From assembly GCA_003644325.1 (NCBI GenBank), contig QNCA01000039.1:1-8983 (forward strand): 8,983 nucleotides of DNA. The letters are read 5' to 3'. Positions 2,049 through 8,983 of this stretch are shown here, in pieces. The stretch comes from Planctomycetota bacterium. GTDB taxonomy: Bacteria > Planctomycetota > B129-G9. Within the stretch, counting starts at the first letter, position 1. Each line of letters begins with the position of its first letter. A program made the position numbers and the translations under genes. A model generated the notes under the pieces. The model saw nothing but the letters and a program-made list of their open reading frames with translations. It did not search any database and had not been told where the DNA came from.

Positions 2049-2081
2049 GAAACCTGAAGGGGTCAGACCTCTTCAGGTTTC
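2049..2081 (-). other. Hairpin spanning the porB stop codon
   Basis: A perfect 11-bp inverted repeat: GAAACCTGAAG (2049-2059) and CTTCAGGTTTC (2071-2081), with an 11-nt loop that contains the porB stop codon (2063-2065). Half the stem therefore encodes the last residues of PorB. On the - strand the stem is followed by GTTTGACACG, too poor in T for a standard intrinsic terminator. It may be a weak attenuator, a 3'-end stabiliser or a processing signal between the mRNA and the tRNA. Confidence 0.6.
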
Positions 2082-3001
2082 ACTTCGCATTTGTGCAGCA
2101 GTTTCTCCCAACGTTTATCGACCTTTTCCTGGATGGCGTCAAGAATGTGTTTGTTTTCGGGCTGCAAGACTTGCGCGAACCGGCCCTGTAATTTGGCCCA
2201 TTCTCCTATGGGGAGTTTTTCCTTGGGCTTGTAGTTCAACTTGTAGACGCCTTCGTCCACTTCGTACAGGGGCCAGAAGCACGTCTCCACGCCCAGGCGG
2301 CACACTTCCACGGACTGCTCGGGCTTGACGCGCCAGCCGCGGTTGCACGATGCCAGGATGTTGAGGAACGCGGGCCCGTCCTTTTCCTGTGCCTTCTGGA
2401 CTTTTGCCATCAGGTCCTTGAAATTGTGGATGCTGGCCTGTGCGACATAAGGGATTTCGTGCGCGGCGCAGATCTCCGTGAGGTTCTTGTCGAACTGTTC
2501 CTTGCCCTTGTGAACGGCCCCTGCCGGCGCGGTAGTGACGTTTGCGCCCATTGGTGTGGCCGATGAGCGCTGGGTGCCGGTGTTCATGTAAGCCTGATTG
2601 TCGTAGCAAACATACAGCATCCTGTGCCCACGCTCCAGGAAACCGCTTATCTGCCCCATGCCTATGTCAAAGGTTGCGCCGTCGCCGCCGAAGGCTATAA
2701 AGTAATACTTATCTTTTACCTTGCCGTCGCGGTTGAGTTTCTTCCATGCGGCCTCGATGCCGCACATCGTCGGCGCCGAGTTTTCAAAGGCATTGTGTAT
2801 GAAGGAGCATCGCCAGGCGGTGTAGGGATAAATCGTCGTGACCACTTCCATGCAGCCTGTAGCGCACGAGACGACGACGGGTGTCTTTGACGCCCGCATG
2901 ACCTGTCTCAACGCGATGCCGCCGCCGCATCCGGCGCAGGCACGGTGACCCGGCGCAAGCAATTCCGGTTTCTTCGACATTTCTTTCAAGTTTATTGCCA
3001 T
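2063..3001 (-). CDS. porB: Pyruvate/2-oxoacid:ferredoxin oxidoreductase, beta (TPP) subunit
   Basis: A 312-residue thiamine-diphosphate subunit of a 2-oxoacid:ferredoxin oxidoreductase, which oxidatively decarboxylates pyruvate (or a related 2-oxoacid) to acyl-CoA and CO2 while reducing ferredoxin. The TPP/Mg motif is GDG (106-108) through to DNQAYMNTGTQRS (from 134). The [4Fe-4S] ligands expected in PorB are Cys22 and Cys25 (ACAGCGGG), Cys50 (ATGCMEVV) and Cys219 (SCNRGW). The length matches stand-alone PorB proteins. The ATG at 3001 has TGAGG about 8 nt upstream and a good promoter further up (3076-3103). The partner alpha (PorA), gamma and delta subunits are not next to it: upstream is a divergent spacer and downstream a tRNA. 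The alpha subunit must then be encoded elsewhere, or this is a paralogue used with another complex. Pyruvate is the likeliest substrate; 2-oxoisovalerate is not excluded. Confidence 0.92.
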   Translation of the reverse strand: MAINLKEMSKKPELLAPGHRACAGCGGGIALRQVMRASKTPVVVSCATGCMEVVTTIYPYTAWRCSFIHNAFENSAPTMCGIEAAWKKLNRDGKVKDKYYFIAFGGDGATFDIGMGQISGFLERGHRMLYVCYDNQAYMNTGTQRSSATPMGANVTTAPAGAVHKGKEQFDKNLTEICAAHEIPYVAQASIHNFKDLMAKVQKAQEKDGPAFLNILASCNRGWRVKPEQSVEVCRLGVETCFWPLYEVDEGVYKLNYKPKEKLPIGEWAKLQGRFAQVLQPENKHILDAIQEKVDKRWEKLLHKCEVKPEEV

Positions 3002-3246: not shown

Positions 3247-3361
3247 GCCGGACTCGTTTTGATTGCATCATTGGTGACCGCGGAAGATGCTCCTGTTGGC
3301 CGCGTCGGCGGGATGCTGTGGTCATGTAACATAGAGCATAGAGCGAAGGGAGGAATTCTAC

Positions 3362-6300
3362 ATGAATTTGGGCCTTGATATCGGCTCCGTCAGCGTCAAT
3401 GCGGTGTTGATGGATGATGAGAACAACGTAATCGATGAACTTTACCTGAGGACAAAAGGACAACCTGTCGAGACATCTCTCGAAGCAATCAACACATTCC
3501 TGGAGCGCCATCCAAATGCCGAGATAAAGGGTGTGGCGCTAACCGGCAGCGGCGGCAAACTGATGGGGCGCATCCTCAATGCCGGTTTCGTCAACGAAAT
3601 AGTGGCCCAGAGCAAGGCCACCGGCACGCTCTACCCCGAGGTGAAGACGATTATCGAGATAGGCGGCGAGGACTCTAAGCTCATACTGTTGGAACGGGAT
3701 GAGGACGGGTCGTTTCGCGTGAAAGACTTTGCGATGAACACGGTCTGCGCCGCGGGCACGGGTTCTTTTCTCGACCAGCAGGCAAAACGCCTGGGCGTGA
3801 ATATCGAGGGGGAGTTCGCGGAACTGGCGCTCAAGTCCGAGAGGCCTCCGCGCATCGCCGGGCGGTGCAGCGTCTTCGCAAAGACGGACATGATACACTT
3901 GCAGCAGGAGGGCACGCCCGACTACGATATAGTGGCGGGGCTCTGCTACGCCCTGACGCGCAACTACGTGGCGAATATCGGACGCGGGAAGGACTTTGAC
4001 AAGCCCATCGCCTTCCAGGGAGGCGTCGCCGCGAACAGGGGCATAATAAAGGCCTTTGAAGATGTCCTCGGCATGGAGCCGGGCGAACTCATCATACCGA
4101 AGCATTACGCCTCGATGGGCGCCATCGGAGCCGTTTTGACGCTGAGGGAAAAGGGGGAGATGAAGCCCTTTGCCGGCGTGGAGGCGATTGAAGGTTTCCT
4201 GCGCAATCGCACCGCCGCCGTCGATACCCTTAAGCCCCTTGTCGATAAAGACTATGAGTACGTGCTGGACACTGAGGAGATACCCGCGGGCGAGAAGGTG
4301 GATGCCTTCGTCGGGGTAGACGTCGGCTCGATAAGCACCAATGTCCTGGTCATGGACCGGAACAAGCGCATACTTGCGCGCCGTTACCTTATGACGGCCG
4401 GGCGTCCGCTGAAGGCGGTCACACGGGGGCTATATGAGGTCGGCCAAGAGATTGGGGACAGGGTAATCGTCAAGGGTTGCGCCACCACAGGTTCCGGCAG
4501 GTATCTCAGCGGCGAGTTCATCGGCGCGGACATCGTCAAGAACGAGATTACCGCCCACGCCACAGGCGCCATTGCCATTGATCCCGAGGTTGACACTATC
4601 TTCGAGATCGGCGGGCAGGATTCGAAGTACATCAGCATCGACAACGGCGCGGTGGTGGACTTCACCATGAACAAGGTCTGCGCGGCGGGTACAGGCTCGT
4701 TCCTCGAAGAGCAGGCCGAGAAACTGGGGATAAGCATAAAGGATGAGTTTGGGAAGATGGCGCTTGGCGCCAGGCAGCCCGCCCACCTTGGTGAACGCTG
4801 CACCGTCTTCATGGAATCGGACCTGAATCATCACCAGCAGAAAGGCGTATCCAAAGAAAACCTGGTCGGGGGGTTGTGCTACTCGATCGTCTTTAACTAC
4901 CTCAACCGTGTCGTCGAGGACCGCAGGATCGGGGACAAGATATTTTTCCAGGGAGGTACCGCCTTCAACCGCGGGGTGAAAGCGGCCTTTGAGGCCGTAA
5001 CCGGCAAGCCCATCATCATCCCGCCGCACCAGGACCTGATGGGCGCATACGGCTGCGCCATAATAGCCATGGAGCACATGGCGGCACAGGGTCCCGACGC
5101 GAAGAGCCGCTTTAAGAGCTTTGACCTCACCAAAAAGAAATACACGATGACTTCGTTTGAGTGCAAGGGCTGCTCGAACCGCTGTGAAATCCGCCGCGTG
5201 TCGGTCGAGGGCGAAAAGCCGCTCTATTACGGCAGCAGGTGCGGCAAGTATGACGAGGAATCAAAGCATTCAAAGGGCAAAAATATCCCCCGGCTTTTCG
5301 CGGAGCGTGAGAAGATGCTCCTGAACGCATATCCCAAAGATAAGCCCGACTTGCCCAACGGAAAGACCGTGGGCATTCCACGCTGCTCCCTTTTCTTTGA
5401 CCTGTATCCCTTCTGGAAAGCCTTCTTCACGGAACTCGGCTACCAGGTGGTGTTGTCCGACGAGACGAACCGAGACATCATCGACGTCGGTAGTAGAACC
5501 GTAACCAGTGAAACCTGCCTGCCCATCAAGGTGGGACACGGCCACGTGATGAACTTGCTCGACAAAGGTGTTGATTACATCTTCCTGCCGATGATCATCA
5601 ATATGGACCAGAAATATGACGGGCTCGTGCATTCGTACGCATGTCCGTACATCCAGGCCCTGCCATATCTGGTCAAGACCGCCATCGATATCGAATCGCG
5701 CGGCGCCAAACTGCTCGAGCCGGTTATACACATGGAACTGGGCCGGGATGAGATAGTGGCCGCGTATAGGGGGATGGGCAAGAAACTCGGCCTCCCGCTG
5801 CGGGACGTCAAGCGCGCTCTCAACGTTGCATTCGAGCGCCAGGAGAAGTTCGAGTCCGACCTGGTGGAGCGCGGTCGGGAAGTCATGGCGAACATTCCCG
5901 AGGGCGCCATTGCCATGGTCATCGTCTCCCGGCCGTACAACGGCTGCGATACGCGCCTGAACCTGAACATTCCCGAGAAACTCCGCGACATGGGCTGCCT
6001 GGCCATACCGCTGGACTTCCTGCCGATTGACATGGAGGCCGTAGCCCGGGATAACCCGCACATGTACTGGAAATACGGCCAGAAGATACTCGGCGCGGGA
6101 CGCATTATCCGCGACGACCCGCGCCTGAACGCCATATACATAACCAACTTCGGCTGCGGGCCGGATTCCTTCATCTCGAAATTTTTTGCCCGCGAACTCG
6201 GCGGCAAACCGTTTCTGACGATCGAGGTGGACGAGCACAGCGCCGACGTGGGCGCGATAACGCGCTGCGAGGCCTTTCTCGATTCGCTCAAGAGCGTCAA

Positions 6301-7588
6301 AAAGAGCAAGCGCCTCCCCCCCGCCCGCGTCAAAGAAGCGCGAAACATGGGTCTGTCGAAAAATCTGCGCATCTACATCCCGTACATGGACGACCACGGT
6401 TACGTCCTGGCCGCTTGTATGCGCCACTACGGCGTGGACGCCGTCGCCATGCCCATGGCCGATAGTGAAAGCATGGAACTCGGCCGCAAATACACTTCCG
6501 GCAAGGAGTGCTACCCCTGCATCATCACCACCGGCGATATCATCAGCATGACCCGCCGGCCCGATTTCGACCCGGAGCGCAGCGGCTTTTTCATGCCCAC
6601 CGCTTTCGGGCCGTGCCGCTTCGGCCAGTACAACAAGTTCCACCGCATGGTCCTGGACGACCTGGGCTACAAACAGGTGCCGATGATAGTCTTCGACCAG
6701 ACGGCGGACTACCATAGTGACCTGGAGACGCTCGGGACGGACTTCAAACGCTATGCCTGGAGCGCCATACTGCTGGTGGACATCATGCAGAAACTGCTGC
6801 GTGAAGCCCGGCCCTACGAAGTGACAAAGGGCGAAGCCGACGCCGTGTATGAGCAATGCCTGGGAGAACTACAGAAGATCGCAGAGCAAAAAGGTGACGT
6901 CTTCGACTTCGCACGCAAGGTCATGGATCGCTTCAGAGCCGTCGAGGTTGACCGCTCCCACCCAAAGCCGCGCATAGGCATCGTCGGCGAGATTTTCGTC
7001 CGCTCGAACCAGTTCACCAACAATTTCATAATGAGAAGGCTGGAAGCGTTCGGTTGCGAGGTCACTCTGCCCGCCTTTGAGGAATGGCTCAACTACATTT
7101 CCTTCGAGCGCGTCCGCGAGGCGAAGAACCACAGGAATTACAAGAATCTCGCCGTGGAATACGTCAGCAACCTCGTTCAGAAACGCGACGCCGACAAACT
7201 CAACAGGCCCTTTGCCGGCAACATACGGAACTTCGAGCGCGAGGTGCCCATCGACGACGTCCTCAGGTACGGCAGCCGTTATATCGACATCGCGTTCCGT
7301 GGCGAGACGATCCTCAGCATGGGCAAGGCCGTTGAATATGCCCACGCCGGGTACAACGGCATCGTGAACCTGGTGCCCTTTGCCTGTCTGCCGGGACATA
7401 TTGTCAACGCGCTGTTCACGAAATTTTCACGGGACTACCCCGGTCTGCCCGTCCTGAAAATGGACTACGACGGCACCAAGCAGGCGAACGAAGACACGCG
7501 TATAGAAGCATTTGTGCATCAGGCTCGTCAACACATGGAGACGCAACTTGCCTCCGAGGAAAGCCTCGAACCCATCGGCACCCGCTAA
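3362..7588 (+). CDS. Giant fusion: double acyl-CoA dehydratase activase, DUF2229 and HgdB-like domains
   Basis: A 1408-residue cytoplasmic iron-sulfur protein. Lobe 1 (about 1-265) and lobe 2 (about 316-585) are each a complete BcrA/BadF/HgdC-type ASKHA ATPase: LDIGS (5-9) and VDVGS (319-323), GGEDSK (101-106) and GGQDSK (417-422), VCAAGTGSFL with Cys129 and Cys440, RCSVF and RCTVF with Cys169 and Cys480, then FQGG. Next comes CKGCSNRC with Cys601, 604, 608 and a following Cys627, a probable metal or Fe-S site. A DUF2229-type domain starts at VGIPR (670-674) and includes SETCLPIK (Cys719) and YACPY (Cys761). The HgdB-like region has RPYNGCD (857-863), NFGCGPDSF (Cys932), EHSADVG (958-964), ECYPC (Cys1050, Cys1053), GPCRFGQY (Cys1085) and PFACLPG (Cys1342). 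Related activators use ATP to push an electron into 2-hydroxyacyl-CoA dehydratases or benzoyl-CoA reductases. Fused proteins of this size are known in anaerobes, but I know of no established substrate. GGGAGGA (3348-3354) precedes the ATG. The frame is intact and single-gene, with its own promoter and terminator. Confidence 0.93.
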   Translation: MNLGLDIGSVSVNAVLMDDENNVIDELYLRTKGQPVETSLEAINTFLERHPNAEIKGVALTGSGGKLMGRILNAGFVNEIVAQSKATGTLYPEVKTIIEIGGEDSKLILLERDEDGSFRVKDFAMNTVCAAGTGSFLDQQAKRLGVNIEGEFAELALKSERPPRIAGRCSVFAKTDMIHLQQEGTPDYDIVAGLCYALTRNYVANIGRGKDFDKPIAFQGGVAANRGIIKAFEDVLGMEPGELIIPKHYASMGAIGAVLTLREKGEMKPFAGVEAIEGFLRNRTAAVDTLKPLVDKDYEYVLDTEEIPAGEKVDAFVGVDVGSISTNVLVMDRNKRILARRYLMTAGRPLKAVTRGLYEVGQEIGDRVIVKGCATTGSGRYLSGEFIGADIVKNEITAHATGAIAIDPEVDTIFEIGGQDSKYISIDNGAVVDFTMNKVCAAGTGSFLEEQAEKLGISIKDEFGKMALGARQPAHLGERCTVFMESDLNHHQQKGVSKENLVGGLCYSIVFNYLNRVVEDRRIGDKIFFQGGTAFNRGVKAAFEAVTGKPIIIPPHQDLMGAYGCAIIAMEHMAAQGPDAKSRFKSFDLTKKKYTMTSFECKGCSNRCEIRRVSVEGEKPLYYGSRCGKYDEESKHSKGKNIPRLFAEREKMLLNAYPKDKPDLPNGKTVGIPRCSLFFDLYPFWKAFFTELGYQVVLSDETNRDIIDVGSRTVTSETCLPIKVGHGHVMNLLDKGVDYIFLPMIINMDQKYDGLVHSYACPYIQALPYLVKTAIDIESRGAKLLEPVIHMELGRDEIVAAYRGMGKKLGLPLRDVKRALNVAFERQEKFESDLVERGREVMANIPEGAIAMVIVSRPYNGCDTRLNLNIPEKLRDMGCLAIPLDFLPIDMEAVARDNPHMYWKYGQKILGAGRIIRDDPRLNAIYITNFGCGPDSFISKFFARELGGKPFLTIEVDEHSADVGAITRCEAFLDSLKSVKKSKRLPPARVKEARNMGLSKNLRIYIPYMDDHGYVLAACMRHYGVDAVAMPMADSESMELGRKYTSGKECYPCIITTGDIISMTRRPDFDPERSGFFMPTAFGPCRFGQYNKFHRMVLDDLGYKQVPMIVFDQTADYHSDLETLGTDFKRYAWSAILLVDIMQKLLREARPYEVTKGEADAVYEQCLGELQKIAEQKGDVFDFARKVMDRFRAVEVDRSHPKPRIGIVGEIFVRSNQFTNNFIMRRLEAFGCEVTLPAFEEWLNYISFERVREAKNHRNYKNLAVEYVSNLVQKRDADKLNRPFAGNIRNFEREVPIDDVLRYGSRYIDIAFRGETILSMGKAVEYAHAGYNGIVNLVPFACLPGHIVNALFTKFSRDYPGLPVLKMDYDGTKQANEDTRIEAFVHQARQHMETQLASEESLEPIGTR

Positions 7589-8442: not shown

Positions 8443-8983
8443 ATGCGCACCTTAACATTTTTAGCAACGGCTGTGTTGTTGCTTATGGTTTCGCTTTTAG
8501 GCCGTCCGGGTTTGGCGGTTGAGGATGAAGCGGACACCCCCGGGCCAAATTTCTCCACCGCAGCAGAGGGACTGTCTTTTACTATTTTTCTTGACCGCCA
8601 AACGTACAAAGTAGGTGAGGAGATAAGTATCAAAGGAAAAATCGAAAACCTGACAAGGTACTATCGGAGCGGGGGTGGGCTGGCGGACACCCCAAGGTTC
8701 AAAATTACGCGCAACGGCACTCTTATAGAAGAGGGCGATACTGATTTTTGGCCAGGCCTCCGAATGGGTGGAGGAGTGCTTCTGCATCCCGGCAAGTCTC
8801 GGGTGTTTAGCTGGAGACTGACGGCAACTTTCTTCGAAGAGGAATTAAAAAAACCAGGTAAATATACGATCCAGGCCTCTTGGGCTCTGACATCTCCCGA
8901 AGTGTATTGGAATGCCGAGAAGAGCTTAATCTCCAATGTCGTTGAGTTTGAAATTCTTCCGCCGGAAGGCGAAAACGGGCGCG
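8443..8983 (+). CDS. Secreted protein of unknown function, 3' end cut by window
   Basis: An open frame of 180 codons that runs off the window. It has an N-terminal signal peptide: Met-Arg, a hydrophobic stretch at about 4-20 (LTFLATAVLLLMVSLLG), then RPGLA with likely cleavage near residue 25 before VEDEAD. The mature part begins with an acidic, Pro-containing linker and continues with a beta-rich pattern, LSFTIFLDRQTYKVGEEISI (from about 44), then KIENL, PGKSRVFSW and KPGKYTIQASW. This resembles extracellular Ig-like or BsuPI/macroglobulin-type domains (strand, YkvGE, N-x-s turn, PGkY strand). That is a pattern-level resemblance only and I assign no function. AGGAG (8431-8435), 7 nt upstream, supports the ATG at 8443; an ATG at 8436 is in another frame. 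Codons such as TTA, ATT and AAA are much commoner than in the neighbouring genes, which may mean a different origin. Confidence 0.8.
   Translation, partial: MRTLTFLATAVLLLMVSLLGRPGLAVEDEADTPGPNFSTAAEGLSFTIFLDRQTYKVGEEISIKGKIENLTRYYRSGGGLADTPRFKITRNGTLIEEGDTDFWPGLRMGGGVLLHPGKSRVFSWRLTATFFEEELKKPGKYTIQASWALTSPEVYWNAEKSLISNVVEFEILPPEGENGR

Follow-up and report, generated by a model that had tools for sequence, protein, structure and literature searches.

A 1408-residue DUF2229-family protein from a Planctomycetota bacterium as a candidate single-chain ATP-driven iron-sulphur reductase

Can an ATP-driven electron activator and the reductase that accepts its electrons be parts of one protein? The question is raised by an open reading frame of 1408 codons (3362-7588, + strand) in a stretch of 8,983 nucleotides from a Planctomycetota bacterium, here called the window (G000:C60:1-8983), which belongs to a genome assembly of 2.28 Mb in 471 contigs that is 79.7% complete. 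The frame is real: it starts with ATG, a Shine-Dalgarno-like GGGAGG lies 8 nt ahead of it (3348-3353, + strand), and 7961 of the 7999 scored candidates, which were limited to 0.55 to 1.75 times the query length, are homologues at E ≤ 1e-3. A preliminary description of the locus had placed an activator and a candidate acceptor on this single chain, an observation that is confirmed by the continuous frame, the Pfam and NCBIfam domains, and the four-cysteine motif, and that is extended here; the interpretation attached to it is partly supported. By sequence, the domain order is activase lobe 1, activase lobe 2, a four-cysteine stretch, DUF2229, and a weak HGD-D tail. In our view the protein probably works as an ATP-driven iron-sulphur reductase contained in one chain: a bridging cluster would push electrons into two HgdB-like lobes of the same polypeptide.

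The activase half consists of lobe 1 (residues ~1-265; 3362..4156, + strand), with C129 and C169 as predicted ligands, and lobe 2 (residues 317-574; 4310..5083, + strand), with C440 and C480, as supported by phmmer and cysteine conservation and, for lobe 2, also by hhalign. The Pfam family BcrAD_BadFG (PF01869) matches the chain twice (260.4 bits against a cut-off of 31.5), and NCBIfam TIGR00241 matches over two stretches (315.7 bits against a curated cut-off of 125.4). Among solved activases, phmmer aligned lobe 1 (residues 4-260) with MbdQ (9gai_D, E 1.1e-28) and HgdC (1hux, E 2.6e-27) and lobe 2 (residues 317-574) with HgdC (E 2.2e-30), and the two lobes are homologous to each other (hhalign E 8.8e-76). 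The more specific equivalog cut-offs were missed both for benzoyl-CoA reductase subunits A, D, and Q (TIGR02259, 163.2 against 578; TIGR02261, 131 against 312.85; TIGR03192, 117 against 380.2) and for methanogenesis marker 15 (TIGR03286, 225.4 against 455.75). C129/C169 and C440/C480 align with the two cluster cysteines of each HgdC subunit (C127 and C166, where C127 is our own count along the alignment). The activase dimer of the 2-hydroxyacyl-CoA dehydratase (HAD) system holds one [4Fe-4S] cluster by two cysteines per monomer (PMC11574389), and by analogy one bridging [4Fe-4S] cluster is predicted between the two activase lobes.

Conservation was followed in a near set of 144 full-length proteins at ~43% identity or more, made up of the query, 119 other hits of the 120 listed, and the proteins of 24 of 28 loci. 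Fifteen cysteines are invariant in all 144: C129, C169, C195, C440, C480, C601, C604, C608, C627, C719, C761, C932, C1050, C1085, and C1342. Without C195 these make a set of fourteen, with two and two bridging cysteines in the activase lobes, four in the linker, and three in each reductase lobe. In a wider set of 63 frames (22-60% identical, some of them split) from 20 and 40 fetched stretches, the fourteen are retained wherever they are aligned, apart from a threonine at position 604 in locus L076 and leaving out the rows of L075 and L123, which are misaligned or antisense; C195 is not retained there. The preliminary description had named loss of the ATP-site residues as damaging to its proposal, and across the near homologues they are kept along with the bridging cysteines: the ATP loops of lobe 2 are complete, and the lobe 1 positions range from 118 to 142 of 144, with G4, D6, G8, and S9 at 141-142 and D104 at 134.

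The acceptor half departs from the preliminary description, which had seen a single HgdB-like C-terminal region. The predicted models instead show a pair of HgdB-like lobes: lobe I (residues ~651-983, comprising DUF2229 at 669-886 and an HGD-D-like tail; 5312..6310, + strand) with C719, C761, and C932, and lobe II (residues 1004-1395; 6371..7546, + strand), which Pfam does not recognise, with C1050, C1085, and C1342. DUF2229 (PF09989) itself is matched at 220.5 bits against a gathering cut-off of 29.4. AlphaFold2 gave a predicted local distance difference test (pLDDT) score of 89 for residues 592-1395 and of 92 for lobe II modelled alone, and both predicted lobes have the HGD-D subunit fold by Foldseek and VIA, with subunits of 2-hydroxyacyl-CoA dehydratases, benzoyl-CoA reductases, and double-cubane proteins (DCCP) as the only Foldseek matches at E ≤ 1e-3. 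Solved family members were reached by fold comparison only, as searching the PDB with the lobe profiles brought up no significant family match: for lobe I, DCCP scored E 0.26, and for lobe II no family member appeared. The three cysteines of one lobe align with those of the other, and in the models each precedes a helix by one or two residues; in BzdN and BzdO, the cluster sites are formed by strand-helix linkers (PMC11971306). Since both lobes are matched better by the smaller subunits (HadC, BzdN) than by the larger ones (HadB, BzdO), the choice of the catalytic lobe is left open.

Both lobes have DCCP chains among their best structural matches, and a double-cubane [8Fe-9S] reductase fused to its own activator therefore has to be weighed, but we regard it as very improbable. 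The double cubane of BzdN is held by six cysteines (PMC11971306), the number per subunit of the double-cubane proteins, whereas each lobe here conserves only three. The further candidates fall short: C862 is present in 140 of the 144 near homologues but in only 15 of 46 aligned letters in the wider relatives, and C1053 in 97 of 144. Because there are three cysteines per lobe and not six, the sites speak for a [4Fe-4S] cluster in each, by analogy with the HAD subunits and BzdO, and against a double cubane.

Between the halves lies the four-cysteine module C601-X2-C604-X3-C608-X18-C627 (residues 592-641; 5135..5284, + strand), which forms a beta unit in the AlphaFold2 model (pLDDT 64-85). Its sole Pfam match, the plant peptide family Stomagen, scored 21.1 bits against a cut-off of 27 and was judged to be due to chance. 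The module resembles a CX2CX3CX11-13C motif that joins two fused domains (PMC11574389), which we take as a lead only, and its position would suit a relay or entry cluster.

Sequence and models thus suggest one pseudo-dimeric activator per pseudo-heterodimeric reductase on the chain, a 1:1 ratio. The HAD system (HgdC with HgdAB; HadBC) differs in not being one chain and in lacking the extra four-cysteine module; it resembles the chain in that HgdAB, like BzdNO, is also a pair, of two homologous HGD-D units with three cluster cysteines each, which are here lobes of one polypeptide. The HAD dehydratase subunits carry one three-cysteine cluster each, 12 Å apart, the beta cluster serving in electron transfer and storage (PMC11574389). 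The class I benzoyl-CoA reductases (BcrABCD, MbdONPQ, BzdNOPQ) likewise join two differing activase and two differing reductase units, with Mbd and Bzd chains matching the reductase lobes and MbdP and MbdQ the activase lobes, but they are encoded by four genes rather than one. The preliminary description had set the fusion against systems in which ATPase and reductase are separate and associate transiently; this stands for the BZD type, which is predicted to be transient, but not for the BCR and MBR types, which are permanent heterotetramers (PMC11971306). DCCP:DCCP-R, beyond the shared fold of the reductase lobes, is a 1:1 complex (three solved entries contain 12 chains of each partner), the same 2:2 proportion as in the 1408-residue chain, and DCCP, too, has no assigned physiological substrate; the complex differs in its double cubane.

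Because all of the HAD ligand sets lie on one chain, in the proportion of DCCP:DCCP-R, ATP-driven electron activation within the molecule is the reading we favour, and for its metal content, electron path, ATP coupling, and substrate we infer the following scheme. A low-potential donor, ferredoxin or flavodoxin, would reduce the bridging cluster at C129/C169/C440/C480, perhaps with entry through the module at C601-C627. With ATP bound and hydrolysed at both activase lobes, the angle at which these meet would change and the potential would fall. The next stop of the electron would be the three-cysteine [4Fe-4S] cluster in one lobe of the reductase (C719/C761/C932 or C1050/C1085/C1342), from which it would go on to the other lobe, where a substrate, not necessarily bound to CoA, would be reduced or turned into a radical.

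Naturally split genes bear directly on the two-lobe arrangement. Frames of ~1400 residues predominate among the listed DUF2229 matches of the phylum, and loci L065, L066, L068, and L072 have a gene for both activase lobes and lobe I (986-1223 residues) and a separate gene for lobe II (414-681 residues), with one gene between them. In L124 and L127, both from Thermodesulfobacteriota, the corresponding genes are directly adjacent. At L075:627-2905 (- strand), lobe I and lobe II are two neighbouring genes, a two-subunit DUF2229-type reductase, and no activase gene was found within the 9 kb fetched. As the splits coincide with the lobe borders, they suggest that a heterodimer was the ancestral state.

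Several results weigh against the single-chain reductase. HGD-D (PF06050) reached 25 bits, below its gathering cut-off of 28.4, and its best stretch covers only residues 924-976. Profile comparison with stand-alone HGD-D proteins was weak (E 6.3e-4 for lobe I, 0.016 for lobe II); with larger profiles, the values were 0.0042 and 0.065, and since the activase control gave 0.12, the lobe II match is counted as non-significant. One of the two ATP sites may differ from those of solved activases, as the phosphate loop of lobe 1 has Glu at position 103 in 118 of 144 near homologues where solved activases have Gln. No recurrent pathway gene was found around the 28 loci, where only recurrent neighbours were annotated. 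Finally, a PF06050 match occurs in 37 of 45 DUF2229 genomes of the phylum and in 35 of 104 others; the count is uncorrected for relatedness, and some of the matches may fall on lobes of DUF2229 proteins themselves.

This last result bears on the alternative in which the chain activates an acceptor other than itself, be it a stand-alone HGD-D protein or some other enzyme, and its own C-terminal lobes serve in docking or relay. Because PF06050 co-occurs with DUF2229 and the genome itself has a stand-alone HGD-D protein (L063:4654-5682, - strand, on contig C10), an external acceptor may exist. Such proteins are a widespread family, mostly of 325-350 residues, with three invariant cysteines (C53, C80, and C290 in P0121). 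We nevertheless hold this alternative to be unlikely, as all six cluster cysteines are kept in the reductase lobes and the PF06050 match is absent from eight of the 45 DUF2229 genomes of the phylum and from six of the eight genomes reached from fusion loci. A stand-alone activase in the same genome (L064:2636-3466, + strand, on contig C232, with a 3-dehydroquinate-synthase-like gene behind it) could also serve the stand-alone HGD-D protein.

The surroundings of the gene name no substrate. The window holds an aminotransferase gene (157-1401), a divergent gene for a PorB-like 2-oxoacid:ferredoxin oxidoreductase beta subunit (2063-3001, - strand; 351.6 bits, below the cut-off of 405), a tRNA-Glu(ctc) gene downstream of it on the same strand (1967-2039), and a frame of 180 residues with a signal-peptide-like start by eye (8443-8982, + strand, open at the window end), for which there is no Pfam or NCBIfam match; no other 2-oxoacid:ferredoxin oxidoreductase subunit was recognised in the window. 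Pfam and NCBIfam recognised no acyl-CoA pathway gene in the window either, in agreement with the preliminary description and unlike the HAD system, and none was among the annotated recurrent neighbours at the 28 and 40 loci, most single neighbours being unannotated. The annotated recurrent neighbours comprise asparagine synthase, LptFG, HD/HDOD, LeuD-like, glycerate kinase-like, B12 radical S-adenosylmethionine (SAM), TPR, HEAT/PDZ, and peptidase S9 proteins, ATP synthase parts, Mg-chelatase-like proteins, RmuC, a decarboxylase beta subunit, and RNase E/G. This list is too mixed for a pathway to be read from it, and an operon-based substrate was therefore dropped. A gene like that of the 3-isopropylmalate dehydratase small subunit overlaps the end of the fusion gene at L003:5653-6141 and L009:6963-7448, two planctomycete loci.

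The comparison of homologous neighbourhoods that the preliminary description had proposed thus yielded no recurring pathway, but it did yield two recurrent neighbours. One is a flavodoxin-like gene 3' of the fusion gene in nine of 12 Aerophobetes loci (L013:7175-7594, L014:4394-4810, L016:6753-7166, and six more), overlapping it or within ~40 nt and often followed by a TPR gene; the resemblance to flavodoxin families is weak (E 1.4e-5 to 1.3e-3 in Pfam for three members, 3.9e-4 in NCBIfam for a fourth), and the protein is a possible electron donor. The other is a radical-SAM gene (~313 residues) beside the fusion gene in 13 of 40 Thermodesulfobacteriota loci (L089:2916-3869 and 12 others), which were drawn from 116 positive genomes, mostly on long contigs, with five short frames deliberately included. 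Its product has a MoaA-like core and a weak winged-helix-like tail, with no solved relative at E ≤ 0.01, and by mechanical start calls the gene overlaps the fusion start in L089, L092, L107, and L111. An RNase E/G gene also lies near the fusion gene in six of the 40 loci (L089:8081-9574 and five more), five of which have the radical-SAM gene on the opposite side.

Co-occurrence of DUF2229 and the radical-SAM gene is modest in Thermodesulfobacteriota (83 of 148 genomes with both, 33 with DUF2229 only, 16 with radical SAM only, and 16 with neither; Fisher p 0.03, relatedness uncorrected), and the two lie within 6 kb in at least 29 genomes against ~0.3 expected, again without correction for relatedness. 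In the planctomycete's own phylum, the counts are 17, 28, 4, and 100 (p 3e-7, likewise uncorrected), and the genes never share a contig in the 17 genomes with both; in the genome studied here, the radical-SAM protein is on contig C183. The link is a lead rather than a rule and is not obligatory, because in the phylum of genome G151 the radical-SAM protein is found in 36 of 148 genomes without DUF2229, and the sole DUF2229 genome, G151, is without it.

Two further readings draw on this neighbour. There is a small chance that the family is an ATP-driven reductase in general use among anaerobes, not tied to CoA substrates and with all of its parts on one chain, that provides super-reduced electrons to the radical-SAM enzyme encoded beside it, or in overlap with it, in many genomes, or that completes a product of that enzyme. 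That the lobes instead perform sulphur or cluster chemistry, with ATP driving maturation or transfer, perhaps together with the radical-SAM protein, seems to us decidedly unlikely. TudS, a family relative with a [4Fe-5S] cluster, transfers sulphur (PMC11971306), three-cysteine sites leave an open iron, and the proximity of the radical-SAM gene would fit. However, TudS is described as only one domain of a reductase subunit in the same source, and here both ATPase lobes and the bridging cysteines are kept, which serve electron transfer in the characterised relatives cited here.

The single-chain reductase reading concerns a family of considerable spread. DUF2229, of which the 1408-residue protein is a member without distinction and which we take to correspond to COG3580/COG3581, was found in 45 of 149 sampled genomes of the phylum, in 116 of 148 of Thermodesulfobacteriota (the phylum of L004), and, in the phylum of L008 (Bacteroidales), in a single genome out of 148, the seed genome itself; these counts are not counts of fusions, as DUF2229 frames span ~230 to more than 2000 residues. 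The control genomes of Thermus composti, Deinobacterium chartae, Thermotoga maritima, and Lactococcus lactis also match, and several of these organisms are presumably not strict anaerobes. The fused architecture is common and already in databases under the generic names 'acyl-CoA dehydratase activase' (NCBI) and 'CoA activase'. No functional study of the family was found in the open-access literature, a search largely outside subscription papers, where an earlier mention of the fusion is possible; the family's COG, DUF, Pfam, or InterPro numbers came up in only two of the papers searched. Two reports mention possible fused homologues in passing: Lactobacillus oligofermentans has a 'CoA-substrate-specific enzyme activase' for which a Rex-like motif is noted (PMC4972977), and SMU_0438c of Streptococcus mutans rises 2.2-fold under manganese depletion (PMC6952196). 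Systems of this kind reach potentials beyond the usual biological window, and a fixed 1:1 ratio of activator and reductase on one chain would allow ATP-driven electron transfer to be studied without a transient complex. The literature searched assigns no reaction to this widespread family, but its domain layout, its conserved cysteines, and the radical-SAM gene near it bring the question of its substrate within reach of experiment.

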